Shown here: piece after piece, positions 6,904 through 29,200 of the stretch
Position numbering within the stretch: position 1 is the first letter of the stretch
How the letters are laid out: each line of letters begins with the position of its first letter
NCBI GenBank assembly: GCA_012839815.1
Contig: DUMQ01000037.1
Span: 1-43,404, forward strand
Source of the DNA: Bacillota bacterium
Lineage (GTDB): Bacteria; Bacillota; SHA-98; Ch115; JABLXJ01
Direction of reading: 5' to 3'
DNA: 43,404 nucleotides
Notes under the pieces: generated by a model
Databases searched by the model: none
What the model was told of the DNA's origin: nothing
The model's input: the letters and a program-made list of their open reading frames with translations, nothing else
Made by a program: the position numbers and the translations under genes

Positions 6904-7031
6904 AGATATCAGGGTGATAGCTCAGGCATCAGGGTGCCGGAAGGTCAGCAGGAATTGGCAGCCCGGCGTGGAATATGTCACTTGTTGCATTTGTATTGCC
7001 CGGCGCCGGTGCCGCGAGGGGGTGGTTGGTA

Positions 7032-10000
7032 ATGGGAGATTTCGTGCATTTGCACCTGCATACACAATACTCCCTTCTTTAGCTTGATGGGGCATGTAAA
7101 CTTGATGAGCTCATGCAGGCGAGCGCGGCTCAGGGCGGCAAGGCCCTTGCTATAACGGATCACGGAGTGTTGTTTGGCGCTGTAGAGTTCTTTAAAGTGG
7201 CAAAGAAATATGGCATTAAGCCGATCATAGGGTGCGAGGTCTATGTCGCGAGCAGGTCCCGCCTGGACAAGGAGGCCAGGGTTGATAAGGATCCTTATCA
7301 CCTTGTTTTGCTCGCCCGGGACGAGGTGGGGTACAGGAACCTGGTCAGATTGACGAGTATAGGCTTTGTGGAAGGTTTTTATTACAAGCCGCGTGTTGAT
7401 GACGAGGTGCTCGCAAAGCATTCGCAAGGGCTTGTGGCTTTATCCAGTTGCCTTGCAGGAGAGATACCCCAGCTTATTCTGCGGGACAAGCTCTCCGAGG
7501 CGAGGAAGAAGGCGCTTTTTTATCACGATATATTCGGGCCGGGGAATTTCTTTCTGGAGGTCCAGTCCAACGGTATTCCCGAGCAGGATAAGGTAAACCG
7601 CGCCCTGTTTAGCCTTTCACGAGAGCTCGGTATCCCGCTTGTTGCGACCAATGATGTCCACTATGTTAAACGAGAGGACTCGAGGGTCCATGACGTCCTT
7701 CTTTGCATCCAGACGGGAAAGACCATCGAGGACCAGGACCGGCTCAGGTTCCCCACAGATGAGTTTTTCCTTAAGTCCCCCGATGAGATGGAGCGGGCAT
7801 TTGGGGAGATACCCGAAGCGCTTGTGAATACCGTCGAGATCGCCGAAAGATGTAACTTTGAGTTTGAATTCGGGCGCTCGCTCGTGCCTGCGTACGAGGT
7901 GCCCGAAGGCCACACTGAGGAAAGCTTCCTGCGCGAGCTATGCGAGAAGGGCCTCCGGGAGAGGTACGAAAAGGTCACACCGGAGCTTGAGGCCAGGCTC
8001 AACTACGAGCTTGATGTCATCCGGAAGATGGGCTACTGCGGTTATTTCCTCATCGTATGGGACTTCATCCACTTCGCGCGGCAGGCTGGCATCTACGTGG
8101 GCCCGGGGAGGGGATCGTGCCCCGGTAGCATAGTTGCGTATTCTCTGGGGATCACCAGCATCGACCCGCTAAAATACGACCTCATCTTCGAGCGATTCCT
8201 CAACCCCGAGAGGGTGAGCATGCCTGATATCGATGTTGATTTTTGCTTTGAGCGAAGGGGCGAGGTCATTGAGTACGTGACGCGCAAGTACGGGGAGGAC
8301 CGCGTCGCCCAGATCATAACCTTCGGTACCATGGCGGCGAAGGCGGCGATCCGCGATGTAGGGAGGGCGCTTAATTTCCCATATGCCGAGGTTGATAAGA
8401 TCGCCAAGCTCGTCCCGGCTGAGTTGAATACGACCATTGACCGCGCACTCGAGAACTCCCCCGAGCTCAAGGAGCTTTACGACGGTAATGAGCAGGTGAA
8501 GAGGCTGATCGACACGGCCAAGGCAGTCGAAGGCATGCCCAGGCATGCCTCCGTGCATGCGGCCGGTGTAGTGATCTCAAAAGATCCGCTGGCAGACTAC
8601 GTGCCGCTCTACAAGACGGGCGACGGCGCCATAACCACCCAGTTCCCCATGGAGGACCTGGAGCCCCTGGGCATTCTCAAGATGGATTTTCTCGGCCTGC
8701 GCACGCTGACGGTGATAGGGAAGACCCTGGATATAATTGCATCAACCAGGGGAGAAAGGATTGACATAACGACCATCCCGTTGGACGACGCCAGAGTCTA
8801 TGAGATGTTAAGGAACGGGGACTCGCTTGGTGTCTTTCAGCTTGAGAGCAGCCTCTTTCAGGGCCTGCTGAAGGAGGTCAAGCCAACGACCTTTGAGGAC
8901 CTCATCGCCATCCTGGCGCTGGGGCGGCCCGGTCCGATGAACAGGATCCAGGATTTCGCCCGGCAGAAGCACGGGCTGGCCCCCATAACATACGCCCATC
9001 CAAAGCTGGAGCCCATATTGAAAGAAACCTACGGCATCATGCTCTACCAGGAGCAGGTTATGCGTGTGGCCAGCGACCTCGCGGGATTCACCATGGGAGA
9101 GGCCGATCTTATGCGGCGCGCAATGGGTAAGAAGAAGCCTGAGGTCCTGGCTAGCCTTCGCGACCGCTTCGTGAGCGGGGCAGCAAAGAATGGGGTGGAC
9201 AGTGAGACCGCCGGGGAGATTTTCGACCTCATGGAATATTTCTCAGGTTACGGGTTCAATAAGTCGCACTCGGCGGCATACGCGCTGATATCCTATCAAA
9301 CGGCCTATTTAAAGGCCCGCTACCCGGCGGAGTTTATGGCAGCCCTGCTTACAAGCGTCACTGGTAATACCGACAAGATTGCATTTTATGTGAATGAATG
9401 CCGGCAGAAGGGCATAGAAATACTCCCCCCCGATGTAAATGAGAGCCTTGCCGACTTCACGGTGGTCAAAGAGGGCAAGGCCATCCGTTTTGGGCTCGCG
9501 GCGGTCAAGAACGTCGGGAGGGGCGCCGTTGACGCAATAATTGCTGCCCGGAAGGAACATAAGAGGTTTAAGTCACTGGTAGACTTCTGTGAGCACGTAG
9601 ATACAGGCGTTGTCAATAAGAAGACCACGGAAAGTCTCATCAGGTGTGGGGCTTTCGATTCGCTCGGGGTGAGACGGTCGCAATTGCTCGCGGTGCTGGA
9701 TGAGGCTTATGAAGCCGCGCAGGCGGGGAGCAGGGAGAAAAAACGTGGTCAGGTATCTTTCCTGGATTTGTTCGACGAGAAGGCTGCATTTTGCATTAAT
9801 GACATCGAGCTTCCTGATATCCCCGAGTTTCCGGAGAGGGAGAGGCTCGCTATGGAAAAGGAGCTTCTCGGGCTTTACATTTCCGGCCACCCTCTGGACC
9901 CTGTGGCTGCCGAGCTGAGGAAGAAGGCTACGGTGACATCAGCCCTCTTGGGCGAGCTGCGCGACGGGGCGGATGTCAGCCTGGCGGGGATCATAACAGG

Positions 10001-10466
10001 CTTCAAGAAGACGACCACCAAGAATGGTCAACCTATGGGCTTTCTGACGCTCGAGGATCTGACGGGAGCGTGTGAGGTCATAGTATTCCCTAAAACTTAT
10101 GAGAAATATGGCGGCTTTATCCGGGAGGAGGAGATCGTCGTCGTCCAGGGCCGGGCCGATGTGAAGGAGGAAGGGACCAAAGTGATCGCAAATGAGATTA
10201 TTCCCTTGACATCTGGCGAGGTTCATATTACTATTGACGCGACAAAATCTGACTCCAAGTCGCTCGGCAAGCTAAAAAGGCTATTCAATTCCAGCAAGGG
10301 AAACGCCCCTGTTTTTATCGAAATTGCCACACCGGACGGAAGCGTAGTGGTCTCGACCTCGCCGGATTTATGGGTCGATCCGGATAGCGTTCTCGAGAAG
10401 CGTGCAGCGGAGTTGATTGAGGGAAAGGGGATCGGCGAAATTGTCCGTTGGGGGATGCAGGCATAA
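7032..10466 (+). CDS. dnaE: DNA polymerase III alpha subunit DnaE, interrupted by an in-frame TAG at codon 17
   Basis: This is the replicative C-family DNA polymerase, about 1144 codons. ATG 7032 follows a GAGGGGGTGG site and encodes MGDFVHLHLHTQYSLL, the classic first motif of the PHP domain. A TAG then occurs at 7080-7082, and the same frame resumes with LDGACKLDELMQAS and continues without another stop to 10466. Relatives read YSLLDGA, so the six bases TAG CTT look inserted. The rest is intact: GRGSCPGS near residue 359, the catalytic PDIDVDF near 397, a helix-hairpin-helix part, and an OB fold near 980. If translation restarted at ATG 7113, PHP motif 1 would be lost, and no good ribosome site precedes that ATG. 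First gene of the dnaE-accDA-pfkA group. Confidence 0.9.
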
Positions 10467-10740: not shown

Positions 10741-11610
10741 ATGTTCAAGGATCTGTTTCGTTCGAAACAAAAATATGTAACGGTAAAGCCTGCGAGCGTC
10801 CGGAGGGAGATCCCCGATGGCATGTGGTCTAAGTGCACCAAATGCGGCCAGATAATCTACAATAAGGAACTTGCAGGCAACCTCAAGGTGTGTCACAAGT
10901 GCGGTTTTCATTTTAAGTTATCCGCCCTCGAGCGTGTGGCGCTGACGGTGGACGCCGATAGTTTTGTCGAATTTGATTCAGATCTTTTAACCGTCAACCC
11001 CCTGGGCTTTCCTGGTTATGAGGAAAAAGTGAAAAGCGGCAAGAACACGACGAAACTCAACGAGGCTATTCTTACAGGCCAGGCCAGGATATGTGGCTTC
11101 CCTGTGGTTATCGGAGCCATGGATTTTGGTTTCATGGGGGCGAGCATGGGGTCGGTTGTCGGTGAAAAGGTGACAAGGGCATTCGAGTTTGCGATAAAAC
11201 GCAAGCTGCCGGTGGTGATGTTTTGCACGTCGGGCGGGGCGAGGATGCAGGAGGGCATCATCTCCCTGATGCAGATGGTGAAAACGAGCGCGGCTGTGGC
11301 CAGGTTCAATGAAGCGGGCCTGCTATATATCTCGGTGTTGACGAATCCGACCACAGGCGGGGTGTTGGCGAGCTTCGCCTCGCTTGCGGATATCGTGCTC
11401 GCCGAGCCTGAGGCCCAGATTGGGTTCGCGGGCCCGCGGGTGATCGAGGAGACCGTGCATCAAAAGCTCCCGCCGGGGTTTCAAACATCCGAGTTTGTGC
11501 TTGCCCATGGTATGATCGACAAGATTGTGGAGAGGAAGAACATGAGGAAGACGCTCGGTCTCCTGCTCTCGCTCCATAGCAAAGTGAGTGAGGTGGCGCT
11601 GGGTGAGTAA
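10741..11610 (+). CDS. accD: Acetyl-CoA carboxylase carboxyltransferase subunit beta
   Basis: This is the beta half of the carboxyltransferase that moves CO2 from carboxybiotin to acetyl-CoA, giving malonyl-CoA for fatty acid synthesis. The 289-residue length is normal. A four-Cys zinc ribbon (CTKCG and CHKCG) lies at about 33-55. The crotonase-fold core has [23 protein letters not shown] and T-N-P-T-T-G-G-V. The start ATG follows a GGTGAGGG site. Its 3' end overlaps accA by 8 bp, as expected for translational coupling of equimolar subunits. Confidence 0.97.
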
Positions 11611-12607
11611 CGGGATTCTGGAATTTGAGAAACCCCTTGCCGAGCTTGAGAAGAGGATAGAGGAGCTAAAGGTTTTCAGCAGCGATAAGGGGATCGACCT
11701 GTCGGGTGAGATTGCGACTCTCGAGCGAAAGGCTGAGGACCTGCGGCGCGAGATATACGGCAACCTCACGCCCTGGCAGAGGATCATGATAGCCCGGCAT
11801 CCTCACCGTCCCACGACCCTCGATTACATCAATCTCATATTTGACGACTTCATTGAGCTTCACGGGGACCGGTGCTTCAGGGATGACGCCGCCATCGTGG
11901 GCGGGATAGCGTCGCTCGAGGGACGCCCGGTGACTGTTGTAGGTACCCAAAAGGGACGGGATACAAAGGAGAACCTGGCGCGCAACTTCGGGATGCCTCA
12001 CCCTGAAGGCTATAGGAAGGCACTGAGGCTGATGAAGCAGGCTGAGAAATTCAGGCGCCCTGTTATCTGCTTTGTCGATGTCGCGGGGGCGTATCCGGGG
12101 ATCGAGGCCGAGGAGAGGGGCCAGGCTGTCATAATAGCGAATAATATATGCGAGATGGCGAGGCTGGAGGTGCCTGTCATAGTGGTCATAACCGGCGAGG
12201 GCGGGAGCGGCGGCGCGCTCGGTATCGGGGTCGGGGATAGGATAATCATGCTTGAGAATGCGTATTTTTCGGTCATCTCGCCCGAGGGCTGTGCCGCGAT
12301 CCTGTGGAAGGATGCATCGAAGGCCAGGGAGGCGGCGGAGGCCCTCAAGCTGACTGCTCAGGACCTCATGCGTTTCGGGATCATCGATGAGATCCTCGCG
12401 GAACCCGGGGGCGCGGCCCACAAGGACCGCGAAGCCATGGCCCGCGTCATAAAGGGGGCTATCCTGAAACACCTTGATCACCTGGTGGGCGTATCCAGGA
12501 AGAGCCTTATCGAGCAGAGGTACAGGAAATTCAGGAAGATAGGCGAGTTTATTGTGGACCAACAAGCTGGTACGAGTGAGGAGATCAGGGATACCATTTC
12601 CCTGTAA
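11603..12607 (+). CDS. accA: Acetyl-CoA carboxylase carboxyltransferase subunit alpha
   Basis: This is the partner of AccD in the alpha2-beta2 carboxyltransferase. It has an N-terminal helical part ([15 protein letters not shown]), then the conserved [21 protein letters not shown] and [10 protein letters not shown] segments and the E-G-G-S-G-G-A-L oxyanion region. GTG at 11603 overlaps the accD stop (GTGAGTAA) and gives a protein starting at the usual place; an upstream in-frame codon at 11588 is less likely. Length 334 residues, close to the usual 315-325. Confidence 0.97.
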
Positions 12608-16835: not shown

Positions 16836-16967
16836 ATGCGGGCGAGTCTTGGCTTCGGAGCTTATGCGGCCCATTGTTTGGTATAAACTATTTCGGAAAA
16901 GCAGGAGTTTTTTGCACCTAATGCGAATAGATAAAAATTGAGGCGTCTTTCGAGGAGGGAAACCCCG

Positions 16968-19325
16968 ATGGAGGGTTCGGGAATCGCCGTGATAGGCGGT
17001 GGGCCCGCCGGGATGTCGGCGGCTGTAGCTTTGGCCAATAACGGGTTAAATGTTTATCTTGTGGAGAAAGAGCCTGTACTGGGCGGGAAGGCTGCGTATT
17101 ATGGTTGCAAGGCGACGGATAAGTGCAACAAGTGTAATGTATGTTTGGTGGCGGATAAGAAGCGCCAGGTGGCTTCCCATCAGAATATAAAGGTGCTAAC
17201 CGGGTGCAGCGTCGAGAGGTCTTCAGGGGAGTTCGGTGATTACAAACTACGCCTGTCCAACGGCGAGATCCTGGAGGTTAGGGCCATCGTCATCGCCACA
17301 GGCTTTGATGTGTTTGATGCAAGGCTGCGACCGCACCTCGGCTATGGGCGCCACGAGAGAGTGGTCTCCGCGTTCGAACTCGAGAGGGCGCTACGGGGGG
17401 GCCGAACGCTGGCCGAATACTTGGGCGGGGTCGCGCCCCGTTCGATAGCCTTCATCCAGTGCGTGGGGTCGCGCGACGTCCGGAGCGAGCATGATTATTG
17501 CTCCCGGGTATGCTGTATGTATTCCCTCCGGCTCGCCAAGGTGATACGTGAGCAACTCCCGGATGCAGAGATAACCGTATTTTACATGGATTTTCAGGGC
17601 GGTGGCAAGGCCCCGCGAGCTTTCAGGGAGTATTGTGAGACGACCGGAAACGTGCGCATGATCAGGAGCATGCCCGGGGAAGTGAGGGTGCTCGAGGGGC
17701 TGGCGAGCGAGGATGGTGCGGACGATCGCCCTCACCAACTCGAGGTCAGGTTTGAGGACCCCGATACCGGGGATGTCCGCAAGGCGGGGTTTGATCTTGT
17801 TGTGCTGGCTGTAGGCAGCACCCCGGGCAGCGATACAACCAGGCTCAGAGAGGTATTTGGTGTGGGCGCTGGCCGCGACGGCTTCTTTGATTCCCCGACA
17901 GGGGTACCCGGTATATTTGCGGCTGGTGCGTGCCGCGGGCCGATGGATATCGCCGAAGCGATGAGGGATGGCGAGGGGGTAGCAACTGAGATTTTGAATA
18001 CCCTGGCGCGGGGAAACATGTGGGCACTCTCGGGTTCGCCTGTGCGGGTCCAGAGCCGCCCTCCGGGCCGGGATGATGGGCGCCCGGGTGACCATGTCCT
18101 CGTCGTGGGCGGCGGTCTCGCGGGGATGGTTGCGGCAAAGACCCTTGCAGACTTAGGCGTGACTGTCACGATCGTGGAGCGCGACGCGAGCCTTGGCGGG
18201 AGGGCCTACCTTTCGGAGAGACCGGATGTATCGGCCCTTCTTGAAAAGGTAATGGAAGATGAGCTGATCAGCATCAAGACATCGTCACGTATTGCGAGCC
18301 TGCGCGGCATGGCGGGCGGTTTCGAGGTGATGTTATCGTCCCATCTTGGCGGCGGTCCCCCGGGTACAATCCGCGCTGGCGCTATTATCATATCCATCGG
18401 CCATAGGCTTGAACTCCCTGCTGCCGCGGTGGGGGCGCGGCTCCCGGCTGATGCCGGCATCCTCACCCTTTCGGAGTTCCGGAGAGGCAGCATATTCAAG
18501 GAGCCAGCCGGTCGGAGGGTTGTTTTCTGGATCCCTGTAATGGCTGGCAACAATGGTCCGGCATTCAGGCTGACCTTGCAAACGATTATCCCGGTTTTGG
18601 ACCGCGGTGGAGAGGTTGTAGTATTGTGTGATGATGTCAAAGTGGCGGGGGGCGGCATGAGTGCCCTATACCGCAAGGCTCGCGACAGGGGAGCCATCTT
18701 CATAAGATGCGGGTCGAGCGCCCCCGGCGTGGAAAGGGCGAGTGAGGCGGGCCGTTCGGGTGGCAGGTTAACCGTCACCGCCCGGGACGGCTCGCTTGCG
18801 GGGCTTGCGGGATTCGCCGGGCCTGACGGGCCGACCGGACCTGCCGGGTACCTGAGGATCGTGTGCGACTGCTTTGTGATCGCCGAGGAGATGGTGCCCG
18901 ATATCGATGCCCCCCAACTCGCTTCAATACTAAATATTCACCCGGGACCGCTTGGATTTTTCCAGGAGGACAATGTCCACCTGCTTCCCTCTGATTCCAG
19001 CAGGCGCGGGATATATTTTGCCGGGACGTGCCGCGGGCCTCAGGATGACGACGAGGTTGTACTCGACGCAAGAGTTGCGGCGCTCCGGGCATATCATCTG
19101 GTGTCCGGGAGTCATTGCCCTGTTGATTGGGCAACAGCCAGCGTAGACCCTGGCAAATGCGCGTTGTGCCTTACGTGTTTGAGGTCATGCCCGCACGCGG
19201 CCATTGAGGTGGATCACGAGAACCGGGCTGCGAGGGTGACACCTATAGCTTGCCAGGGGTGCGGCGTTTGCGCGAGCGAATGCCCGGCCAGGGCCATAAC
19301 CCTGAAACACCTGGAAGTTTCATAG
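16968..19325 (+). CDS. HdrA-like flavoprotein with two FAD modules (HdrA1)
   Basis: The protein is 785 residues. The first FAD Rossmann motif is GGGPAG at 10-15. A Cys cluster follows (Cys47, 53, 56, 59; KCNKCNVC), then the HdrA hallmark FIQCVGSRD at 162-170 with YCSRVCC at 177-183. A second FAD motif is GGGLAG at 381-386. The C-terminal end holds a two-[4Fe-4S] ferredoxin domain (CALCLTC and CQGCGVC). HdrA proteins bifurcate electrons at FAD, coupling a favourable transfer to ferredoxin reduction. The order hdrA-mvhD-metV-metF matches the Moorella-type methylene-THF reductase operon, so this is probably the HdrA that feeds MetFV. ATG 16968 has GGAGGG 8 bp upstream; an earlier in-frame start at 16938 is less likely. 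Confidence 0.88.
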   Translation: MEGSGIAVIGGGPAGMSAAVALANNGLNVYLVEKEPVLGGKAAYYGCKATDKCNKCNVCLVADKKRQVASHQNIKVLTGCSVERSSGEFGDYKLRLSNGEILEVRAIVIATGFDVFDARLRPHLGYGRHERVVSAFELERALRGGRTLAEYLGGVAPRSIAFIQCVGSRDVRSEHDYCSRVCCMYSLRLAKVIREQLPDAEITVFYMDFQGGGKAPRAFREYCETTGNVRMIRSMPGEVRVLEGLASEDGADDRPHQLEVRFEDPDTGDVRKAGFDLVVLAVGSTPGSDTTRLREVFGVGAGRDGFFDSPTGVPGIFAAGACRGPMDIAEAMRDGEGVATEILNTLARGNMWALSGSPVRVQSRPPGRDDGRPGDHVLVVGGGLAGMVAAKTLADLGVTVTIVERDASLGGRAYLSERPDVSALLEKVMEDELISIKTSSRIASLRGMAGGFEVMLSSHLGGGPPGTIRAGAIIISIGHRLELPAAAVGARLPADAGILTLSEFRRGSIFKEPAGRRVVFWIPVMAGNNGPAFRLTLQTIIPVLDRGGEVVVLCDDVKVAGGGMSALYRKARDRGAIFIRCGSSAPGVERASEAGRSGGRLTVTARDGSLAGLAGFAGPDGPTGPAGYLRIVCDCFVIAEEMVPDIDAPQLASILNIHPGPLGFFQEDNVHLLPSDSSRRGIYFAGTCRGPQDDDEVVLDARVAALRAYHLVSGSHCPVDWATASVDPGKCALCLTCLRSCPHAAIEVDHENRAARVTPIACQGCGVCASECPARAITLKHLEVS

Positions 19326-19337
19326 CCGGCAGCCGGT
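19324..19337. repeat. 7-bp tandem duplication at the hdrA1 stop codon
   Basis: AGCCGGC (19324-19330) is followed by AGCCGGT (19331-19337). The TAG stop overlaps the first copy. Confidence 0.7.
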
Positions 19338-19371
19338 CGGGAGTAAAGCCTGGGTATAGGGAGGGCTCTTC

Positions 19372-19848
19372 ATGCCTAAAATCGTCGCTTTCGCTTGCGA
19401 GCATTCTGCATATGAGGCTGCGACTGCGGCGCTCGAGCGGAAAACGGGAACAGCCGTGTCGGGCGAAAATCCGAGGTTTCCGATTGTTGAAGTTGAAATC
19501 CTAAAGGTCCCTTGTACCGGCAGAGTCGAGGTTATTGATATTCTCAAGGCTCTCGAGGGTGGGGCGGGCATCGTCGTCCTGCTTGGTTGCTTTGAAGAGG
19601 CGTGCCACTATCTCACCGGGAACGTGCGAGCGAAGAAGCGCGTGGGGTATGTTCGCAGGATCATCCAGGATATCGGACTTGAGGAGAACAGGGTCCAATT
19701 CTTTTCCCTCGCCCCTGACATGGACGCGCGTTTCTCCGGGATCATTGAGGAGCTTTCGAAGCAGGTAGTAAACATGGGGCCTGGTCCCGTCACAAGGATA
19801 AGGGATCAGACGACAAAAGAGCAGGCGCAGGCAGCGCAAGCTAGGTGA
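19372..19848 (+). CDS. Divergent MvhD-type electron-transfer subunit (MvhD1)
   Basis: MvhD proteins carry a [2Fe-2S] cluster and pass electrons to or from HdrA. The canonical form has C-x-x-C, then C-S-G-R, then G-C-H-P-G-D-C. In this 158-residue protein the first pair is C-E-H-S (Cys9, with Ser12 replacing Cys), the second is PCTGRV (Cys48), and the third is GCFEEACHYLTGN (Cys73, Cys78). One usual cysteine is therefore missing, and the G-A-D segment is also lost. The cluster may be altered or bound with a non-Cys ligand. It overlaps the start region of metV and follows hdrA1, so it probably links that HdrA to MetV. Confidence 0.85.
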   Translation: MPKIVAFACEHSAYEAATAALERKTGTAVSGENPRFPIVEVEILKVPCTGRVEVIDILKALEGGAGIVVLLGCFEEACHYLTGNVRAKKRVGYVRRIIQDIGLEENRVQFFSLAPDMDARFSGIIEELSKQVVNMGPGPVTRIRDQTTKEQAQAAQAR

Positions 19849-19859
19849 GGGGTGCGGAT

Positions 19860-20537
19860 ATGATAGTCGCTGAGCAGAAGCCGGTAGCCGAGATCCTGAG
19901 GATGATAGAGGGTTATCGCAAGATCCTTGTGGTAGGCTGTGGGACATGCGTCACGGTCTGCATGGCCGGGGGCGAGAAGGAGGCTGGTATCCTGGCATCC
20001 CTGATCAGGATGGCGTGGGCCCGAGAGGGCAGGTTGGGTCCCCTGATCGATGTGAGCGAGACCACGGTTGAGCGGCAGTGTGAGTGGGAGTTTCTCCAGG
20101 AGATCTCCGAGAAGGTTGCGGCATCCGATGCTGTGCTGAGCATGGGATGCGGCGCCGGGGTCCAGGCGATGGCCAGGATGTTTGAAGGCAAGGTGATACT
20201 CCCCGCCCTTAACACGAAGTTCATAGGGATGCCCGAGAGGCAGGGACTCTGGACGGAGCTTTGCGCGGGGTGCGGCGACTGCGTGCTCGATCGAACGGGA
20301 GGGATTTGCCCCATAGCCCGGTGTTCCAAGAGCCTTTTGAACGGCCCGTGCGGGGGGTCGCAGAACGGCAAGTGTGAGGTCAGCAAGGATATCGACTGCG
20401 CCTGGCAGTTGATATTCGACAGGATGAAGTCCCTGGGGAGGTTGGAGGCGCTCGGGGCGATGCTCCCACCCAAGGACTGGTCCAAAAACCGCGATGGCGG
20501 GCCGAGGAAGGTTGTCAGGGAGGATATGTTGCTATGA
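19860..20537 (+). CDS. metV: MetV, zinc/iron-sulfur partner of methylene-THF reductase
   Basis: This is a MetV-family protein (methylene-THF reductase C-terminal-like, about 225 residues). Visible cysteine-rich motifs are G-C-G-T-C-V-T-V-C near the N terminus, C-A-G-C-G-D-C-V-L-D in the middle, and N-G-P-C-G-G-S with a further Cys nearby. In Moorella MetV forms a complex with MetF and links it to HdrABC-MvhD. ATG 19860 has GAGGGG about 8 bp upstream; the GTG at 19845, overlapping the mvhD1 stop, is an alternative. It overlaps metF by 4 bp (ATGA), showing tight coupling. Confidence 0.9.
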   Translation: MIVAEQKPVAEILRMIEGYRKILVVGCGTCVTVCMAGGEKEAGILASLIRMAWAREGRLGPLIDVSETTVERQCEWEFLQEISEKVAASDAVLSMGCGAGVQAMARMFEGKVILPALNTKFIGMPERQGLWTELCAGCGDCVLDRTGGICPIARCSKSLLNGPCGGSQNGKCEVSKDIDCAWQLIFDRMKSLGRLEALGAMLPPKDWSKNRDGGPRKVVREDMLL

Positions 20538-21451
20538 AATCAGGAAGCAACCTCGAAAAGGTCTTGGTGCACGGTGACTTCGCCGTCACGGGCGAGCTTG
20601 GCCCCCCGCAGAGCAATGACAGGGAGGTCATAGTTAAGAAGGCGAAGGCATACAAGGGGTATGTCGATGCAGTAAACATAACGGACAACCAGACTGCCAT
20701 AGTGAGGATGTCGAGCATCGCCGCGTGCGCGATTGTTGCGGGGCTCGGCCTGGATCCTGTGATGCAGATGACTTGCCGCGACAGAAACAGGATCGCCATG
20801 CAGAGCGATATCCTCGGCGCATCTGCTCTCGGCATCAAGAATATATTGTGTCTGACGGGTGACCATCAAAGCTTTGGGAATCACCCAACATCGAAGAACG
20901 TCTACGATATCGACTCGATCCAACTGATCAGCATGGTCAAGGGCATGCGGGACGATAAGAAGTTTTTGAACGGCGAGGAGATGAAGTCCGAGCCGAGGAT
21001 GTTCATAGGGGCCGCGGCCAATCCCTTCGCCGACCCATTTGAATACCGGGTTGTGCGGCTCGCAAAGAAGGTCGCGGCCGGCGCTGATTTCATCCAGACG
21101 CAGGCGGTCTTCGATGTCCCGAGGTTCAAAAGGTGGATGGAGATGGTGCGGGATCGCGGCCTCCACGAGAGGGTTTATATCCTGGCCGGGGTTATACCTG
21201 TGAAGTCGGCCGGCGCCATGAGGTACATGAAAAACGATGTTCCCGGTATGAGCGTGCCGGATGAGCTGGTGAGGCGCATGGAGCAGGCATCTGATCCCAA
21301 GGAGGAGGGCATCAGGATATGCGTGGAGACGATTCTGCAGTTGCGGGAGATCGAGGGCGTGAGTGGCATCCATCTTATGCCCATAATGTGGGAGAGCGTT
21401 GCGCCCATTATCGTCGAGCGGGCAGGCCTCTTGCCGAGGCCGGAATATTAG
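20534..21451 (+). CDS. metF: 5,10-methylenetetrahydrofolate reductase
   Basis: This FAD-dependent TIM-barrel enzyme reduces methylene-THF to methyl-THF, the last reductive step of the Wood-Ljungdahl methyl branch. The 305-residue protein has the conserved E-L-G-P-P near residue 22 (Glu for folate), D-A-V-N-I-T-D-N near 46, C-L-T-G-D-H near 106 and F-I-Q-T-Q-A-V-F-D near 187. Lacking an NAD(P)H-specific partner domain, enzymes of this type rely on MetV and Hdr-like subunits for electrons. It starts on the ATGA overlap with metV. TATTAGCT is tandemly duplicated across the TAG stop. Confidence 0.95.
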   Translation: MKSGSNLEKVLVHGDFAVTGELGPPQSNDREVIVKKAKAYKGYVDAVNITDNQTAIVRMSSIAACAIVAGLGLDPVMQMTCRDRNRIAMQSDILGASALGIKNILCLTGDHQSFGNHPTSKNVYDIDSIQLISMVKGMRDDKKFLNGEEMKSEPRMFIGAAANPFADPFEYRVVRLAKKVAAGADFIQTQAVFDVPRFKRWMEMVRDRGLHERVYILAGVIPVKSAGAMRYMKNDVPGMSVPDELVRRMEQASDPKEEGIRICVETILQLREIEGVSGIHLMPIMWESVAPIIVERAGLLPRPEY

Positions 21452-21461
21452 CTTATTAGCT
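21446..21461. repeat. Perfect 8-bp tandem duplication spanning the metF stop codon
   Basis: TATTAGCT occurs at 21446-21453 and 21454-21461. The first copy contains the TAG stop at 21449-21451. Confidence 0.9.
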
Positions 21462-21490
21462 TAAATGATATTCAGGAGGGTTGAATCGCT

Positions 21491-21910
21491 ATGGAGGTTC
21501 AGGGATACTCGCTGCCGGATGAGCTTTATTACGACACAAACCACAGCTGGGGCCGGGTCGAGGGCGATATCATGGTCGTCGGGATCAATGATTTCGCGCA
21601 GAAACTTGCTGGGGAATTCGTTTCGGTGGACCTGCCCTCAAAGGGCAAGAAGGTGCAACAGGGTAAACCCCTCGCCTCTGTCGAATCGGGCAAATGGGTC
21701 GGAAGGGTCTATGCCCCTGTGAGCGGCGAAGTGGTCGATGTCAATGAAGCCCTTGAAGACGACCCGACTACATTGAATAGCGACCCCTACGGGGAAGGCT
21801 GGGTCGCCAAGATCAGGTTCGAAAACTCGGCGGAGCTGGAGAACCTGCTCCAGGGGGAGAAGGCCGCCAGGTGGCTCGAGGAGGAAATCGCCAAGCACGT
21901 AAAGAAATGA
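21491..21910 (+). CDS. GcvH-like lipoyl carrier protein inside the Hdr cluster
   Basis: The protein is 139 residues with the barrel-sandwich fold of glycine cleavage H protein: H-S-W near 18-20, V-G-I-N-D-F-A near 30-36, V-D-L-P near 46-49, and lipoyl Lys68 in S-V-E-S-G-K-W-V-G-R. In ordinary GcvH the lysine lies in ESVKA, so the site is recognisable but unusual. H proteins carry methylamine on a lipoyl arm between the P and T proteins and so supply methylene-THF. Related lipoate-binding proteins also accompany sulfur-oxidising Hdr complexes. No glycine cleavage P, T or L genes lie nearby, so a redox or carrier role tied to MetF/Hdr is possible. The ATG follows AGGAGGG. Confidence 0.88.
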   Translation: MEVQGYSLPDELYYDTNHSWGRVEGDIMVVGINDFAQKLAGEFVSVDLPSKGKKVQQGKPLASVESGKWVGRVYAPVSGEVVDVNEALEDDPTTLNSDPYGEGWVAKIRFENSAELENLLQGEKAARWLEEEIAKHVKK

Positions 21911-21949
21911 CCGTGAACGCGCCGGGACGGAACGCGGGGAGGATGGCTT

Positions 21950-22477
21950 ATGGATATTGTAATCACAGATCTTGACCCCAGGTTTAAGCATGAGGTCGCG
22001 AAGGAGGAGGGCGGCGAGCGCGTAAAGTATTGCTTCCAGTGCGGCACCTGTACATCAGGTTGCCCCGTGAGCGAGATAGATAGCAAGTATAACCCCAGGT
22101 GCATCATCCGCATGGTCATACTGGGGATGAGGGAACAGGTTCTGAGGAGCGATTTCATATGGCTTTGCTCCACGTGCTATACCTGCTATGAGCGCTGCCC
22201 GCAGGATGTCAGGATAACCGAGGTCATGAACGCATTGAAGAACATGGCCGTTCGGGAGGGATACATCCATCCTGCCTTCAGAGCTCAGGCGGAGCTCATC
22301 GGCTCGCACGGCAGGCTGTATGAGATCGATGAATTTACTGAAGAAAAGCGGGAGGAACTCGGGCTCGCCCGGCTCTCCGGAGACATCGCCGAGGTCGCGG
22401 AGATCTTCAAGATCACGGGGCTTGCTGAGCTATTGAGCGAAGCATCCCAGGAGCCGGTCAGGACGGCGAGCGCGTGA
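21950..22477 (+). CDS. hdrC: Heterodisulfide reductase-like subunit C
   Basis: This 175-residue protein has two [4Fe-4S] motifs: Cys28-x2-31-x2-34-x3-38 and Cys73-x2-76-x2-79-x3-83, each followed by Pro. This is the HdrC pattern, which relays electrons between HdrA and HdrB. It lacks membrane segments, so the complex is cytoplasmic. It is followed 30 bp later by hdrB, and the order hdrC-hdrB-hdrA is standard. A tandem TGACGT duplication lies on its TGA stop. Confidence 0.93.
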   Translation: MDIVITDLDPRFKHEVAKEEGGERVKYCFQCGTCTSGCPVSEIDSKYNPRCIIRMVILGMREQVLRSDFIWLCSTCYTCYERCPQDVRITEVMNALKNMAVREGYIHPAFRAQAELIGSHGRLYEIDEFTEEKREELGLARLSGDIAEVAEIFKITGLAELLSEASQEPVRTASA

Positions 22478-22499
22478 CGTTGACGTGAGAGACGTGAGG
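22475..22499. repeat. Nested tandem duplications at the hdrC stop codon
   Basis: TGACGT is repeated at 22475 and 22481 (the first copy begins with the stop codon). GACGTGAGA (22482-22490) is followed by GACGTGAGG (22491-22499). The last copy contributes GAGGAGG, the ribosome site of hdrB. Confidence 0.85.
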
Positions 22500-22507
22500 A
22501 GGCGGCG

Positions 22508-23386
22508 ATGGCAGTGAAGTATGCTATATTTTTAGGTTGCACGGTGCCCGTGAGGGCCATGAGCTACGAGGTCTCGGCCCGCAAGGTCGCAGGTGGCCTG
22601 GGGATCGAACTGGTTGATATACCGGAATTTAGCTGCTGCGGCTATCCAGTGAAGTCAGTTCACCAGGATACGACGCTTCTCATGGCTGCGCGAAACCTGA
22701 GCCTTGCGGAGGAGCGCGGCCTCGATATCACCACCCTTTGCAGCGCCTGCACCTCCGTCCTGACCGAGGCGGCCAGGAGGCTTAGCTCCGACGGGGAGCT
22801 TCTCGGCAAGGTTAACGAGCAGCTCAAGAAGCTTGGAAGGAAGTATTCGGGCCGGACCAGGGTCAAGCACTTCGCACGCGTTATTTATGAGGATGTGGGG
22901 CTTGATAAGGTGAGGGAGAGCGTGAAACGCGATATCAGCTCCCTGCGGATCGCCTCGCACTACGGGTGCCATTACCTCAAGCCCTCTGAAATCTACGACC
23001 GTTTCGACGACCCCGAGGTGCCGGCCAGCCTCGACGCGCTGGTGGAGGCCGCGGGAGCTGTGCCGGTCGACTATGTAACAAAGAAGGAATGCTGCGGTGG
23101 TGCAATTCTCGGGGTCGATGAAAACATAGCCCTTAGTATGACCAAGCAGAAGCTGGATGATATCTCGAAGCGCGGCGCCGACGCCATAAATCTCGTCTGT
23201 CCATTCTGCAACATCATGTATGGGGCAAACCAGAGGAAGGTCCAGTCGAAATATGGCGTCAAATACGACCTGCCCATCCTCTATTACCCGCAGGTTCTCG
23301 GGCTTGCGATGGGGATGGAGCCGGAGGAGCTCGCGCTCAACATGAACCCCATAAAGCCCAAGTCGCTCCTGGCGAAGCTTGGCTGA
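22508..23386 (+). CDS. hdrB: Heterodisulfide reductase-like subunit B
   Basis: This 292-residue protein has two CCG domains. The first includes Cys11, Cys43-Cys44 (CCGYPVKS) and Cys78/Cys81 (LCSAC). The second includes Cys154 (HYGCHYLKP), Cys195-Cys196 (ECCGG) and Cys231/Cys234 (CPFC). In HdrB these hold non-cubane [4Fe-4S] clusters that reduce a disulfide. The organism is not expected to have CoM-S-S-CoB, so the acceptor here is unknown; options are a lipoyl arm (the GcvH-like protein), a small-molecule disulfide, or MetF. The conserved cysteines are complete. Confidence 0.93.
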   Translation: MAVKYAIFLGCTVPVRAMSYEVSARKVAGGLGIELVDIPEFSCCGYPVKSVHQDTTLLMAARNLSLAEERGLDITTLCSACTSVLTEAARRLSSDGELLGKVNEQLKKLGRKYSGRTRVKHFARVIYEDVGLDKVRESVKRDISSLRIASHYGCHYLKPSEIYDRFDDPEVPASLDALVEAAGAVPVDYVTKKECCGGAILGVDENIALSMTKQKLDDISKRGADAINLVCPFCNIMYGANQRKVQSKYGVKYDLPILYYPQVLGLAMGMEPEELALNMNPIKPKSLLAKLG

Positions 23387-23407
23387 GAAGGTGGTGACCG
23401 GATAGCT

Positions 23408-25462
23408 ATGGGTGTGGCACACGGCGAGGTCAAAGCCGAAGCCCCTCATATGGGCGGGATAAATGAAGCCGGCTGTGGCCGCGGTCCCCGGATCGGTGTG
23501 TACGTATGTCATTGCGGGCTGAATATAGCGGCGACGGTGGATGTGGCGCGCGTGCGCGATGCTGTGGCCGGCCTGCCGGGGGTTGTGGTTGCGCGCGACA
23601 ACAAGTATACGTGCAGCGAGGTCGGGCAAAAGACCATCGCTGATGACATCAAGAACCTCAACCTTGACAGGGTTGTAATAGCATCTTGCTCGCCCCGCCT
23701 TCATGAGCGCACCTTTCGCGAGCTCATGGCCAGGTCGGGGTTGAACCCCTTTCTCCTGGAGATGGCCAATATCCGGGAGCAGTGCTCCTGGGTGCACGGG
23801 CACGATCGCGAGGCTGCGACCAGGAAGGCTGTGGCGCTCACAAGGGCGGCTATCGCGCGGGCTGCGCTTTTGGAGCCCCTCGAGCGCAATGTGGGCTCTG
23901 TGACGAAGTCAGCCATGGTGATCGGGGGAGGGGTTGCGGGGATCTCAGCGGCCTTGTATCTTGCAAATATGGGCGTAAAGACCTATCTCGTGGAGCGTGA
24001 GCCGAGCATCGGCGGGCACATGGCGATGCTGGACAAAACGTTCCCAACCCTCGATTGCAGTCTGTGCATCCTGTCTCCCAAGATGGTGGAGGTGAGGGAG
24101 AACAGCAACATCGAACTCTTGAGCTATACGGAGGTTCGAAAGGTCGAGGGGCAGGTGGGTAGCTTCAAGGTTGAGCTCCTGCGGAAGCCGAGATATATAG
24201 ACGAAGCCAAGTGCGTGGCGTGCGGCCTCTGCGCTGAGAAGTGTCCTTCAAAGGCTCCCGATGAATTCAATCGCGGCTACTCCGAGCGGAAGGCCATATA
24301 TATTCCATTCCCCCAGGCGATCCCCGCAAGCTACGTAATCGATCCGAATTATTGCAGGTATTTCACGCGCGGCGGGAAGTGCCGGGTCTGCGAGAAGATC
24401 TGCGAGCGCGGGGCGGTGGATTTCTCCCAGAGGGAGGAGATCGTGACGCTGGATGTCGGGGCCATAGTTATCGCGACCGGCTTTGAGCCTTATGATGCCT
24501 CCAGGAAGACGCAGTACGGCTACGGGCGCTTCCCCAATGTTATAACGAGCCTGGATTTCGAGCGCATCATCTGCGCCGATGGCCCCACCCACGGGAAGCT
24601 GAAGAGGCCTTCCGACTGGGAGATCCCTCGTCGCATTGCCTTCATACAGTGTGTCGGGTCGCGCGATGAACATGAAACGGACGGGGCGGGGAAGTATTGC
24701 TCGCGCGTGTGCTGCATGATCACGGCGAAACAGGCTTTCATGGTCAAAGAGAAATATCCGGATGCCGAGGTTTACGTCTACCATACCGATATGCGCACGG
24801 CCGGCAAGGGTTTTGAGGAGTTTTATCAACGTGGGCGCAGCGAGGGTATAGTCTTTGTAAGGGGGAAGCCCGGTGAGATAGTGGAGAACCCTGAGGATCA
24901 CAGCCTCCGGGTTGTCGCGGAGGATGCAGATAGCGGTTGCATCCTGGATCTTACGTTCGATATGGTCGTCCTCGCTATAGGCCTGAGGCCTCCCGGTGGC
25001 CTCGTAGAGCTGGCTCAGAAGCTGAACGTCTCGAGGAGCGCCGATGGGTTCCTGCTCGAGGGCCACCCCAAGTTGCGGCCGGCCGAAACCTCCATTGAAG
25101 GAATTTACCTGGCCGGGTGCGCTCAATTCCCCAAGGATATCCCGGATAGCGTCGCGCAGGCGGGGTGCGCTGCGGCTGCGGCTGCGGGCGTCCTGGCGAG
25201 CGACAGGATAGAGATGGACCCGCTGAATCCCGTTGTGGATGAAGAACTCTGCATCGGGTGCCGGCTCTGCGAGAAGCTTTGCCCCTATGGCGGCATTAAG
25301 GTTGAGAAGACCGATAAGGGGTTCAAGGCAAGGGTCATCGAACTGGCATGCAAAGGGTGCGGCGTGTGCGGCGCCGCATGCTCGGCGAGAGCCATTAAGA
25401 TGCGCCACTATTCGGATGAACAGATATATGCCCAGACAGCGGCGCTGCTGGAGGTGGGCTAA
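23408..25462 (+). CDS. hdrA: Heterodisulfide reductase-like subunit A (HdrA2, canonical form)
   Basis: The 684-residue protein has the complete HdrA order. An N-terminal domain begins at R-I-G-V-Y-V-C-H-C-G (28-37) with S-C-S-P-R-L-H-E near 93. Next come an FAD Rossmann motif GGGVAG at 173-178, Cys217/Cys220, an inserted ferredoxin domain (CVACGLC), FIQCVGSRD, and a C-terminal ferredoxin domain (CIGCRLC, CKGCGVC). HdrA holds the bifurcating FAD and sends one electron to ferredoxin and one to HdrBC. It follows hdrB by 21 bp and its stop touches the start of mvhD2. No selenocysteine TGA is seen. Confidence 0.94.
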   Translation: MGVAHGEVKAEAPHMGGINEAGCGRGPRIGVYVCHCGLNIAATVDVARVRDAVAGLPGVVVARDNKYTCSEVGQKTIADDIKNLNLDRVVIASCSPRLHERTFRELMARSGLNPFLLEMANIREQCSWVHGHDREAATRKAVALTRAAIARAALLEPLERNVGSVTKSAMVIGGGVAGISAALYLANMGVKTYLVEREPSIGGHMAMLDKTFPTLDCSLCILSPKMVEVRENSNIELLSYTEVRKVEGQVGSFKVELLRKPRYIDEAKCVACGLCAEKCPSKAPDEFNRGYSERKAIYIPFPQAIPASYVIDPNYCRYFTRGGKCRVCEKICERGAVDFSQREEIVTLDVGAIVIATGFEPYDASRKTQYGYGRFPNVITSLDFERIICADGPTHGKLKRPSDWEIPRRIAFIQCVGSRDEHETDGAGKYCSRVCCMITAKQAFMVKEKYPDAEVYVYHTDMRTAGKGFEEFYQRGRSEGIVFVRGKPGEIVENPEDHSLRVVAEDADSGCILDLTFDMVVLAIGLRPPGGLVELAQKLNVSRSADGFLLEGHPKLRPAETSIEGIYLAGCAQFPKDIPDSVAQAGCAAAAAAGVLASDRIEMDPLNPVVDEELCIGCRLCEKLCPYGGIKVEKTDKGFKARVIELACKGCGVCGAACSARAIKMRHYSDEQIYAQTAALLEVG

Positions 25463-26269
25463 ATGGAGAGTGAAACGTTCGAACCGAAAATTGTGGCGTT
25501 TCTGTGCAACTGGTGCTCGTATGCCGGTGCTGACCTCGCAGGCACGTCTAGGCTCTACTATCCAGCCAACGTACGCGCCATCAGGGTGATGTGCTCGGGC
25601 AGGGTCGACCCTGCGATGATGATCAGGCCTTTCATAGACGGTGCCGACGGGGTTCTCGTGCTCGGATGCCATTTCGGGGATTGCCATTACCTCACGGGTA
25701 ATTACCAGACTGACCAGCGTGTGAGAATCGTATGGGAGGTGCTCCGCCAGGTCGGCGTAGATCCCGGGCGGCTGCATCTTGACTGGGTTTCGGCGGCCGA
25801 GGGCGCCAGATTTGCCGAGATCGTTGAGGAATTTTGCAACAGGATGAGGCACATGGGGCCGCTGCAGGCTTCGCTTCCGTCCGGGCCATTGCCTTATGAC
25901 CTGCCCCTGGCCCTGGCGATAGCGGCTGAAATCGTGGAGGGCGAGAGATTCAGGTGGCTCTTGGGAAGGCTGCGCGAGCTCCGCGAGCAGGGAAGCGTAT
26001 ATGGTGAGAGGATCGATGCGGCCAGGCTTGAGCAGCTGGTGCGGGATGTCATAGCCGAGGAGTACGTGCGGGCAGGCGTGCAGGTCCTTGCGGCGCGCGA
26101 ACCCCTATCTGTTAAGGATATGGCATCGAAGCTCGGGCTGGCCGCCAGGGATGTATTAAAGCAGGTTGCGTACTTGAAAAAACGCGGGGTCCTCGATATT
26201 TACGATGTCCGGCAACAATCGCCAAGGTACCAGTCAACTACGCGTATAGGGGTAGATGACCTTGGATAA
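25463..26269 (+). CDS. MvhD-type subunit with a C-terminal winged-helix-like extension (MvhD2)
   Basis: Residues 1-135 are a normal MvhD: C15-N-W-C18, C44-S-G-R and G-C69-H-F-G-D-C74-H-Y-L-T-G-N, enough for the [2Fe-2S] cluster. Residues 140-268 are an added part. A helical stretch is followed, at about 213-250, by E-P-L-S-V-K-D-M-A-S-K-L-G-L with L-K-K-R-G-V-L-D-I-Y-D, which looks like a winged-helix domain. Such a domain could bind DNA, a partner protein or HdrA. The gene starts immediately after the hdrA2 stop and overlaps hdrA3 by 14 bp, so it is co-translated with the complex. Confidence 0.85.
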   Translation: MESETFEPKIVAFLCNWCSYAGADLAGTSRLYYPANVRAIRVMCSGRVDPAMMIRPFIDGADGVLVLGCHFGDCHYLTGNYQTDQRVRIVWEVLRQVGVDPGRLHLDWVSAAEGARFAEIVEEFCNRMRHMGPLQASLPSGPLPYDLPLALAIAAEIVEGERFRWLLGRLRELREQGSVYGERIDAARLEQLVRDVIAEEYVRAGVQVLAAREPLSVKDMASKLGLAARDVLKQVAYLKKRGVLDIYDVRQQSPRYQSTTRIGVDDLG

Positions 26270-29200
26270 CAGGGATAATATGGATAATGATGTTGGAGCC
26301 AAGAGTGTCGGGGCTGTGTTGGTCGTAGGTGGCGGGATCGGGGGTATGCAGGCGGCCCTTGATCTCGCAAATTCGGGCTTTAAGGTGTATATGGTGGAGG
26401 CAAAACCAGCCATCGGGGGTGCCATGGCGCAGCTCGATAAGACCTTCCCGACTAACGATTGCTCCATGTGCATAATGTCGCCCAAGCTTGTTGAGTGCGG
26501 CAGGCACTTGAATATTGAGGTGATCCCCAACAGCGAGGTGACGGGGCTCGATGGCAGCCCGGGGGACTTCACGGTGACGGTGAAGACGAGGGCGAGGTAT
26601 ATCGACCCCCACAGGTGTACGGGATGCGGGCTGTGCGCCGAGCATTGCCCTGTCAGCGCGGCGCGGGATGCCTTCAATGCGGGGCTCTCGAGCCGGCCGT
26701 CGGTGTACATCGACTACCCGCAGGCCGTGCCGCTCGCCTATACCATTGACAGGGAAACATGCATAGGCTGCGGGCTGTGCGAGAATATCTGCATGGCCGG
26801 CGCCGTGAGATACGATGATGCCGCGAGCACGCGGGAACTCAATGTCGGTGCCATCATCCTGGCGCTGGGCTTTGAGCCGTATGATCCCGGGCAGATGGCC
26901 GAGTACGGCTACGGGCGCTATCCAAATGTGGTTACCAGCGTGGAGTTTGAACGCATTCTGAGCGCCTCGGGGCCGTTCGAGGGGAGGGTCCTCCGGCCCT
27001 CCGACGGCGACATACCCCGGAAGATCGCATTCATCCAGTGCGTGGGCTCGAGGGACAGGTCCTGCGGCAATGAATACTGTTCATCCGTATGCTGCATGTA
27101 TGCGAGCAAGGAGGCCGTGATCGCAAAGGAACACGCCCCCGGTGTCGAGCCTACCATATTCTATATGGATATGCGCTCTTACGGGAAGGGTTTCGATAGC
27201 TACATCGAAAGGGCCAAGTCCGAATACGGCGTCAGGTATATAAGGACGCGCGTGGCCGATATCTCGGAGGTTCCCGAGACGAATAACCTCATCGTTTCGT
27301 ATGAGGACGAAGTTGGAAGGGTTGTAACGGAAGAATTTGACCTGGTCGTGCTGAGCGTGGGCCTGGAGCCCCCGAAGAGCGCGGCAGGCCTGGCGCGGGC
27401 CCTGGGCATAGAGCTCGATGAGTACGGCTTTGCCAGGACCGGGACCTTCGACCCTGTGGAGACTTCGCGCCCCGGGGTTTTCGTGTGCGGCGCAATGCAG
27501 GGGCCCAAGGATATACCGGAGACGGTGACGCAGGCGAGCGGGGCGGCAGGCGCGGCTGCGGCGCTCCTGGCGAGCGCTCGCGGGAGCCTGGTCCGGGAGA
27601 AGACTTACCCTCCGGAGAAGGATCTCAGGGGCAAGGGCCCCCGGATCGGGGTTTTCGTATGCCACTGTGGCATCAACATCGGCGGCGTAGTCGACGTCCC
27701 GGCCGTTGTCGAGTACGCCAGGACGCTACCCCATGTGGTCTACGCCGAGCGAAACCTTTATACCTGCTCCCAGGATACGCAGAAGCGAATCCAGGAGAAG
27801 ATCCAGGAGCACGGTCTCACAAGGGTTGTTGTGGCATCGTGCACACCACGGACGCACGAGCCCCTTTTCCAGGAGACCATCCGCGAGGCCGGGCTGAATC
27901 ATTACCTCTTCGCCATGGCGAACATTCGCGACCAGTGTTCATGGGTACACATGCACGAGCCGGAGCTCGCCACGGAAAAGGCCAAGGACCTTGTCCGGAT
28001 GGCCGTCGCAAGGGCGGCGCTCCTGGAGCCCCTGGAGCGGCTGCCAATCCCGGTGAAGCATTCGGCCCTTATCATAGGCGGCGGCCTTGCGGGCATGACG
28101 GCTGCGCTCGACGTGGCGCGGCAGGGCTTTGAGGTGCACCTGGTGGAGAGGGAGGGCGAGCTGGGCGGCCATCTCAATAGAATATATTTCACGCTCAAGG
28201 GTGAGGATGTGCAGGAGCGCCTCAGGGATCTCATTCGCAGGATCGACGGCGAGCCGCTCATCCACGTTTACCCGGGGTGTGTCGTGACCGAGATAGCGGG
28301 ATACGTGGGCAATTTCAAGAGCAAGATCGCGCCGGTCGGTGGCGGCATCGAGGCCGAGGTCGAGCACGGCGTCGTCATAGTGGCAACCGGGGCGGGCGAA
28401 TTCAAGCCTGACAAGTACCTTTACGGCGAGGATCCAAGGGTCATTACCCAGTCCGAGCTCGAGGAGCTGCTCGCGACGGGAAAGATTCAACCAGGTAGCC
28501 GCGCGGCGAGCACCGGTACCGGCCGCACCTTTGTGATGATCCAGTGCGTGGGCTCGCGTGAGGGCGAGCGAAACTACTGCAGCAGGATTTGCTGTAGCGA
28601 GGCGGTGAAAAACGCCCTCAGGTTAAAGGCTGCGGACCCTGAGGCCAACATATATGTCCTCTACCGGGATATCAGGACCTATGGGGAAAGGGAGGTATAC
28701 TTCCAGCGGGCTCGAGCGGCCGGTGTGGTCTTCATACGCTACCCCGAGGATGAGCCCCCGGTGGTCGAGCCGGTAGCCGGGCCTGAGGTCGAGCAAGGGG
28801 GCAAAGGGAAGCCTGTAGGTGAGCTCCGGGTGGTGGTGCGCGATACGCTGCTCGGGAGCAAGGTCGCCATACCGGCCGATATGGTGGTGCTCGCTGCCGC
28901 TATCGTGCCTAATGATTCCAACCGCGAGCTGGCCCAGATGCTGAAGGTTCCCCTCGATGATAACGGCTTCTTCCTTGAGGCTCATATGAAGCTGCGGCCC
29001 GTGGATTTTGCCACGGAGGGGGTATTCCTGGCGGGACTGGCGCATGCGCCGAAGTCAATAGATGAGACGGTGGCGCAGGCTCATGCGGCGGCCGCGCGGG
29101 CATGCACCGTCCTGAGCCTGGAGGAGATCAGGAGTGATGGCATAAAGTCCGAGGTCAACAAGGCGCGGTGCAGCGGGTGCGGGATGTGCGTCGATGTTTG

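Follow-up and report, generated by a model that had tools for sequence, protein, structure and literature searches.

Ribosomes that hop over an in-frame stop codon are known from synthetic constructs in E. coli (Weiss et al. 1987, cited from PMC5009743), for which a stop lying between matched codons is the sole feature described. For natural in-frame stop hopping, a 2016 review stated that 'no occurences are known' (PMC5009743). The dnaE gene analyzed here resembles these constructs in that its stop has matched or near-matched codons on either side, nine bases would give one amino acid and the frame would remain unchanged; the constructs were made for tests, whereas the dnaE site is natural, conserved and placed in an essential chromosomal gene. 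As proposed for dnaE, in T4 gene 60 a stop (UAG) immediately follows the take-off codon, the landing codon is similar and the translating ribosome skips a non-coding gap. However, its gap is 50 bases long, lies between identical GGA codons and changes the frame, where dnaE would need a 6-base in-frame shift, and gene 60 has nascent-peptide and stem-loop signals, whereas no structure signal was found in dnaE. The mitochondrial byps of Magnusiomyces capitatus would be comparable as short inserts skipped in essential genes with tolerance of imperfect codon matches, but a single organelle genome holds 81 of them and their A site is occupied by an unused codon (PMC5009743), while dnaE shows a single site with a stop codon in bacteria. 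The +1 frameshift of prfB (RF2) shares with dnaE a Leu codon CTT before an early stop, near the gene start, and re-pairing of the P-site tRNA-Leu, which is predicted for dnaE; in contrast to prfB, dnaE has no upstream Shine-Dalgarno-like purines, tolerates TAG as well and would be read in the wrong frame after a +1 shift. Finally, the TMV-type sequence CAA UAG CAA has identical codons around a leaky stop, as in dnaE, and hopping was suspected there, but mass spectrometry revealed readthrough (PMC2754532); for dnaE, codon evolution points to hopping instead. Nothing was found on dnaE recoding in the open-access literature.

The window, i.e., the whole stretch of 43,404 nucleotides analyzed, is contig C18 of the Bacillota genome G000 (2.80 Mb, 163 contigs). 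A previous sequence-only reading had noticed that dnaE begins at ATG 7032, meets a TAG at 7080 and then continues as an open frame. We confirmed this arrangement: past the TAG the frame reads CTT GAT GGG GCA (DGACKLDEL) and stays open for 1127 codons up to the stop ending at 10466, and the ATG at 7113 proposed as a restart does exist. The features of the locus are as follows.

7017 to 7025, forward strand: strong Shine-Dalgarno AGGGGGTGG of dnaE, ahead of ATG 7032
7032 to 10466, forward strand: dnaE, DNA polymerase III alpha subunit, interrupted at codon 17 by an in-frame stop
7032 to 7079, forward strand: first 16 codons of dnaE, MGDFVHLHLHTQYSLL, carrying the HxH PHP metal ligands (E. coli positions 10 and 12; ligands by family alignment, PMC3666897)
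7047 to 7568, forward strand: PHP domain (Pfam PF02811), which spans the stop
7068 to 7079, forward strand: TAC TCC CTT CTT, last four codons before the stop
7077 to 7079, forward strand: CTT (Leu16), putative take-off codon
7080 to 7082, forward strand: in-frame TAG stop, kept as TAG (4) or TGA (9) in 13 genomes
7083 to 7085, forward strand: CTT, putative landing codon (CTT, CTA, CTG, TTG, GTG, ATG or CCG in relatives)
7086 to 7088, forward strand: GAT, putative resume codon, Asp corresponding to E. coli D19, the third PHP metal ligand
7113 to 7115, forward strand: ATG, ordinary internal Met

Read through the stop, the protein shows the full domain set of DnaE1 (Pfam PF02811, PF07733, PF17657, PF14579 and PF01336), and the presence of PHP, polymerase NTPase, finger, HhH and OB domains places it in DnaE1. 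A second DnaE or PolC had been proposed as something to look for, but nothing else in the G000 genome matches the Pol III alpha core family; therefore, G000 must make this DnaE.

The insert, a stop followed by one further codon between YSLL and DGA, was found in 13/13 genomes examined from two lineages, the window's order (4 genomes) and, in another class, families f63 and f74 (9 genomes), with TAG in 4 genomes, TGA in 9 and TAA or a sense codon in none. A search of 61 genomes recovered one stop inside dnaE in exactly four, namely G000 (CTT CTT TAG CTT GAT), G001 of the same genus (CTT CTT TAG CTT GAC), and G002 (CTC CTT TAG CTA GAT) and G003 (CTT CTT TGA CTA GAC) of the same order. Scanning 84,980 species' genomes for the pattern gave nine matches. 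Seven were in Bacillota MAGs and one was the G002 contig; the ninth, in Methanobrevibacter (L048), was rejected as a chance match because its frame is full of stops. Among 399 genomes of the phylum, only G000 to G003 and family f63 matched, the latter in 8/8 genomes examined. These scans were not exhaustive, as they required NTN after the stop and so missed G128 of family f74 (CTG TGA CCG), which was found by a class search. No viral contig searched for the site gave a match. At the place of the Shine-Dalgarno, all 13 insert-bearing genomes hold GGGGGTGGT or a close variant (e.g., GGAGGTGAT).

The closest relatives of the two lineages read YSLLDGA with nothing in between (the 13 f3 genomes, which share the window's class, and, from the other class, G051 of f38), which bears out the earlier suggestion that TAG CTT is a 6-bp insertion. 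In a protein tree of 37 DnaE sequences, the insert-bearing rows fall with f3 and f38 in one clade (100/99) and are split into two groups within it. Two changes would suffice for this history: either two gains, or one gain followed by a loss in f3 (and in f38, depending on the root).

We then considered selection on the codons around the stop, measured as silent and replacement differences in pairwise codon comparisons among the 13 genomes. Codons -13 to -1 showed 446 silent and 35 replacement differences, while only about a quarter of random changes in them would be silent, and codons +2 to +4 showed 149 silent and 0 replacement differences. On the contrary, the codon right after the stop gave 18 silent and 53 replacement differences, a ratio that fits an unselected codon even though the neighbouring residues hardly vary. 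Because of these opposite counts, both flanks appear to be translated into the product while the residue after the stop seems to be unselected, and a downstream restart, gene decay or a dispensable motif are ruled out or very unlikely. The restart at 7113 and the dispensability of PHP motif 1, both put forward by the sequence-only reading, are thus contradicted by purifying selection on either side of the stop; moreover, the f63/f74 genomes have no Met at the place of ATG 7113.

In the nine f63/f74 genomes, the codons TAC TCC CTC CTG before the stop are the sole run of four identical codons in about 700, and only 3/50 invariant leucines use an identical codon throughout, two of them just before the stop. 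RNA folding is no explanation for this run, since synonymous shuffles fold with the same energies as the region of the site (mean z 0.08, 13 sequences). The pre-stop pyrimidine tract TACTCCCTCCT is conserved at the nucleotide level in f63/f74. The start region (GGGAG or GAGGGAGT) and the Shine-Dalgarno are complementary to this tract (window 7017-7079, L063-L071); the corresponding hairpin was rejected, as despite the complementarity it is no better than in synonymous shuffles.

Each lineage has a single, unvarying codon before the stop, CTT in 4/4 genomes of the window's order and CTG in 9/9 of f63/f74. The codon after it is CTT or CTA in the former and CTG, TTG, GTG, ATG or CCG in the latter, so that it lies at most one base from the pre-stop codon in 13/13 genomes, although the match is not perfect (identical in 4/13, one base off in 9/13). 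As a control, only 10/678 other codon pairs two apart stay within one base in all rows, and we attribute most of these 10 to repetition of a single conserved residue. In f63/f74 all four bases occur at the first position of the post-stop codon, whereas its third position is invariably G, opposite to what a coding site shows. Such a fixed third base with at least three first bases was seen in 3/103 such columns, the start codon being among the three. This column fits re-pairing of a tRNA-Leu(CAG) in the P site at two of three positions.

Considering these data, we believe that TAG CTT (7080-7085) is probably a translational bypass element serving a programmed +6 in-frame ribosomal stop hop. The earlier remark that TAG CTT, which stands beside a CTT, looks like a 6-bp insertion was the key clue, although the hop between near-identical codons, the best option, was absent from the mechanisms listed by the earlier reading. 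With the stop in the A site, the ribosome would pause with peptidyl-tRNA-Leu on CTT or CTG; the tRNA would release CTT, the mRNA would slide 6 bases, and the same tRNA would re-pair on CTT 7083-7085, with decoding resuming at GAT. The nine bases CTT TAG CTT would then give one leucine and the product would be a normal YSLLDGA polymerase, whose tryptic peptide would span ...HTQYSLLDGACK. Since re-pairing would occur in the P site, beyond the reach of the decoding-centre check, it is plausible that a first-base mismatch (NTG) is tolerated, as at start codons. Part of the ribosomes would terminate, releasing a 16-residue peptide and limiting DnaE synthesis. There is about an even chance that this is a natural programmed stop hop which the only replicative polymerase gene has retained despite deep divergence, with the competition between release factor and hop setting the amount of polymerase. 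The sequences directly show the stop and its conservation, the coding character of both flanks, the non-coding behaviour of the post-stop codon and its likeness to the pre-stop codon, and a single Pol III alpha; that ribosomes hop, how efficiently they do so and whether this serves regulation is what we infer.

As expected for bypassing, CTT or CTG is directly followed by TAG or TGA in 13/13 genomes, and the take-off and landing codons match, albeit imperfectly; stimulatory stem-loops like those of gene 60 were not seen, but these mark gene 60 rather than bypassing as such. Several observations nonetheless count against a hop. GTG, ATG and CCG are imperfect matches to CTG as landing codons, unlike the identical GGA codons of gene 60, the known efficient bypass; a nascent chain of 16 residues is short for a peptide signal like that of gene 60, and the folding energies give no signal. 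In addition, the 13 genomes are related, so that the effective number of independent events is small. Hop efficiency is low in synthetic constructs, which weighs against a hop in the essential dnaE.

The geometry of the PHP site was also informative. The metal ligand pairs H12/D19 of E. coli, H13/D20 of Taq and H348/D355 of G. kaustophilus PolC are always seven apart (Table 1, PMC3666897), and in M. tuberculosis DnaE1 the metal ligand at the position of this Asp is Asp23, where D23N abolishes the PHP exonuclease and lowers stability (PMC5636811). In our genomes the third-ligand Asp is the D of LDGA. A hop would give the universal YSLLDGA and keep the H12-to-D19 spacing at seven, while a readthrough product with two added residues would have a spacing of nine; all solved DnaE chains with alignments printed show a two-residue gap at the place of the insert. 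Metal-binding PHP domains accompany the absence of a separate proofreading exonuclease (PMC3666897). Since no RNase_T (DnaQ-type) exonuclease domain was detected in the genomes of G001, G002, G003 and G128, the PHP site of DnaE probably proofreads there, and this domain may be their sole proofreader. G000, G187, G161 and G258 have one or two DnaQ-type domains each, which may not be DnaQ itself.

We also looked at the decoding machinery of these genomes. Family matches to both RF1 and RF2 were present in 10/10 genomes checked. Open reading frames, tRNAs and further cases were read in 1.43 Mb of G000, about half of the genome, where the 676 long ORFs end in TGA (282), TAG (225) or TAA (169), confirming that TAG is used as a normal stop. 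In this portion ARAGORN identified tRNA-Leu UAG, UAA and CAG. None of the tRNAs read was a suppressor, a few low-scoring matches aside, and no PylS match above the cut-off was found in the genome. No convincing further stop-split gene was seen in the same 1.43 Mb, as judged by eye; the candidates inspected resemble adjacent operon genes that share a frame (e.g., rplW-rplB and glyQ-glyS) or antisense frames. The usual CTT TGA +1 frameshift site of prfB is kept in G000, G002, G003, G128, G161, G187 and G258 (loci L116, L115, L119, L122, L113, L118 and L121). In prfB of G000 and G002 this TGA is followed by A, while C is nearly universal at this frameshift site.

The main rival of a hop is programmed readthrough, in which a near-cognate tRNA would decode TAG or TGA and DnaE would carry two extra residues (X plus L, V, M or P) between YSLL and DGA. 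Conservation of stop and frame with coding on both flanks, the use of TAG or TGA but never TAA in 13/13, the C after the stop in the window's order, which is a weak termination context, and the mostly hydrophobic residue that follows would all be in agreement with it. Nevertheless, we consider readthrough unlikely. The post-stop codon carries no amino-acid constraint, which disfavours a translated residue there, and yet it is tied to the pre-stop codon; the +4 base, which is the first base of the post-stop codon and a main determinant of readthrough, is always C in the window's order (4/4), whereas f63/f74 have A, C, G or T, and thus neither a constrained +4 context nor a coding-like post-stop codon is seen in the evolutionary evidence. 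TAG and TGA swap although they need different near-cognate tRNAs, no suppressor was among the tRNAs read, and the two residues would be inserted between H12 and D19, whose spacing is fixed. Suppression or read-through had been among the options offered by the sequence-only reading; the idea that the stop is passed is supported, while a suppressor is not, considering the lack of pylS and of a suppressor tRNA among those read and the interchangeable TAG and TGA. Reassignment of TAG as a sense codon, through pyrrolysine or an amber suppressor, would account for an in-frame TAG within an essential gene, but it is extremely unlikely considering that 225/676 long ORFs end in TAG and that a relative of the same order has TGA at the same place.

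Termination followed by restart is very unlikely. It would give a 16-residue peptide and a DnaE beginning at or after the stop (at NTG in f63, at ATG 7113 in the window) without PHP motif 1. The post-stop codon of f63 is indeed always NTG (ATG, GTG, TTG, CTG), the bacterial start set, and its column resembles that of a start codon, but five genomes have CTT, CTA or CCG, none of which is a start codon, the pyrimidines upstream (TACTCCCTCCTG) are the opposite of a Shine-Dalgarno, the product would lose its HxH metal ligands, and the codons before and just after the stop are under strong purifying selection. An assembly or sequencing error, or a decaying gene, borders on the impossible. Even if the window's genome is fragmented, 12 other genomes with diverged DNA carry the same insert, which refutes the sequencing or population error and the recent loss suggested before, the more so as TAG and TGA are swapped among them; furthermore, the gene is the only Pol III alpha of its genome and keeps its codons intact after the stop. 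We also rejected a prfB-type +1 frameshift, which leads to the wrong frame and would have a pyrimidine tract upstream instead of a Shine-Dalgarno-like stimulator; in G002 and G003 the +1 frame meets a TAG one codon past the shift.

If true, the hop in dnaE of these uncultivated Bacillota would be the first natural in-frame stop hop, as only artificial constructs have been available so far, and the 13 natural site variants would represent a ready-made mutational scan. Whether cells use in-frame bypassing and whether it can serve regulation, a long-standing question, can now be tested directly, with E. coli or B. subtilis as reporter hosts. Automatic gene calling will probably place the starts of these polymerases beyond the stop, or else label them as pseudogenes.

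Concerning the surroundings of the locus, accD and accA, encoding the acetyl-CoA carboxylase carboxyltransferase subunits, adjoin dnaE downstream in the same direction (window 10741-12607). Further along, window positions 16938-29363 hold a cluster with long heterodisulfide-reductase-type flavin/iron-sulphur oxidoreductases (Pyr_redox_2 and Fer4 domains), which suggests an anaerobic, possibly electron-bifurcating metabolism.
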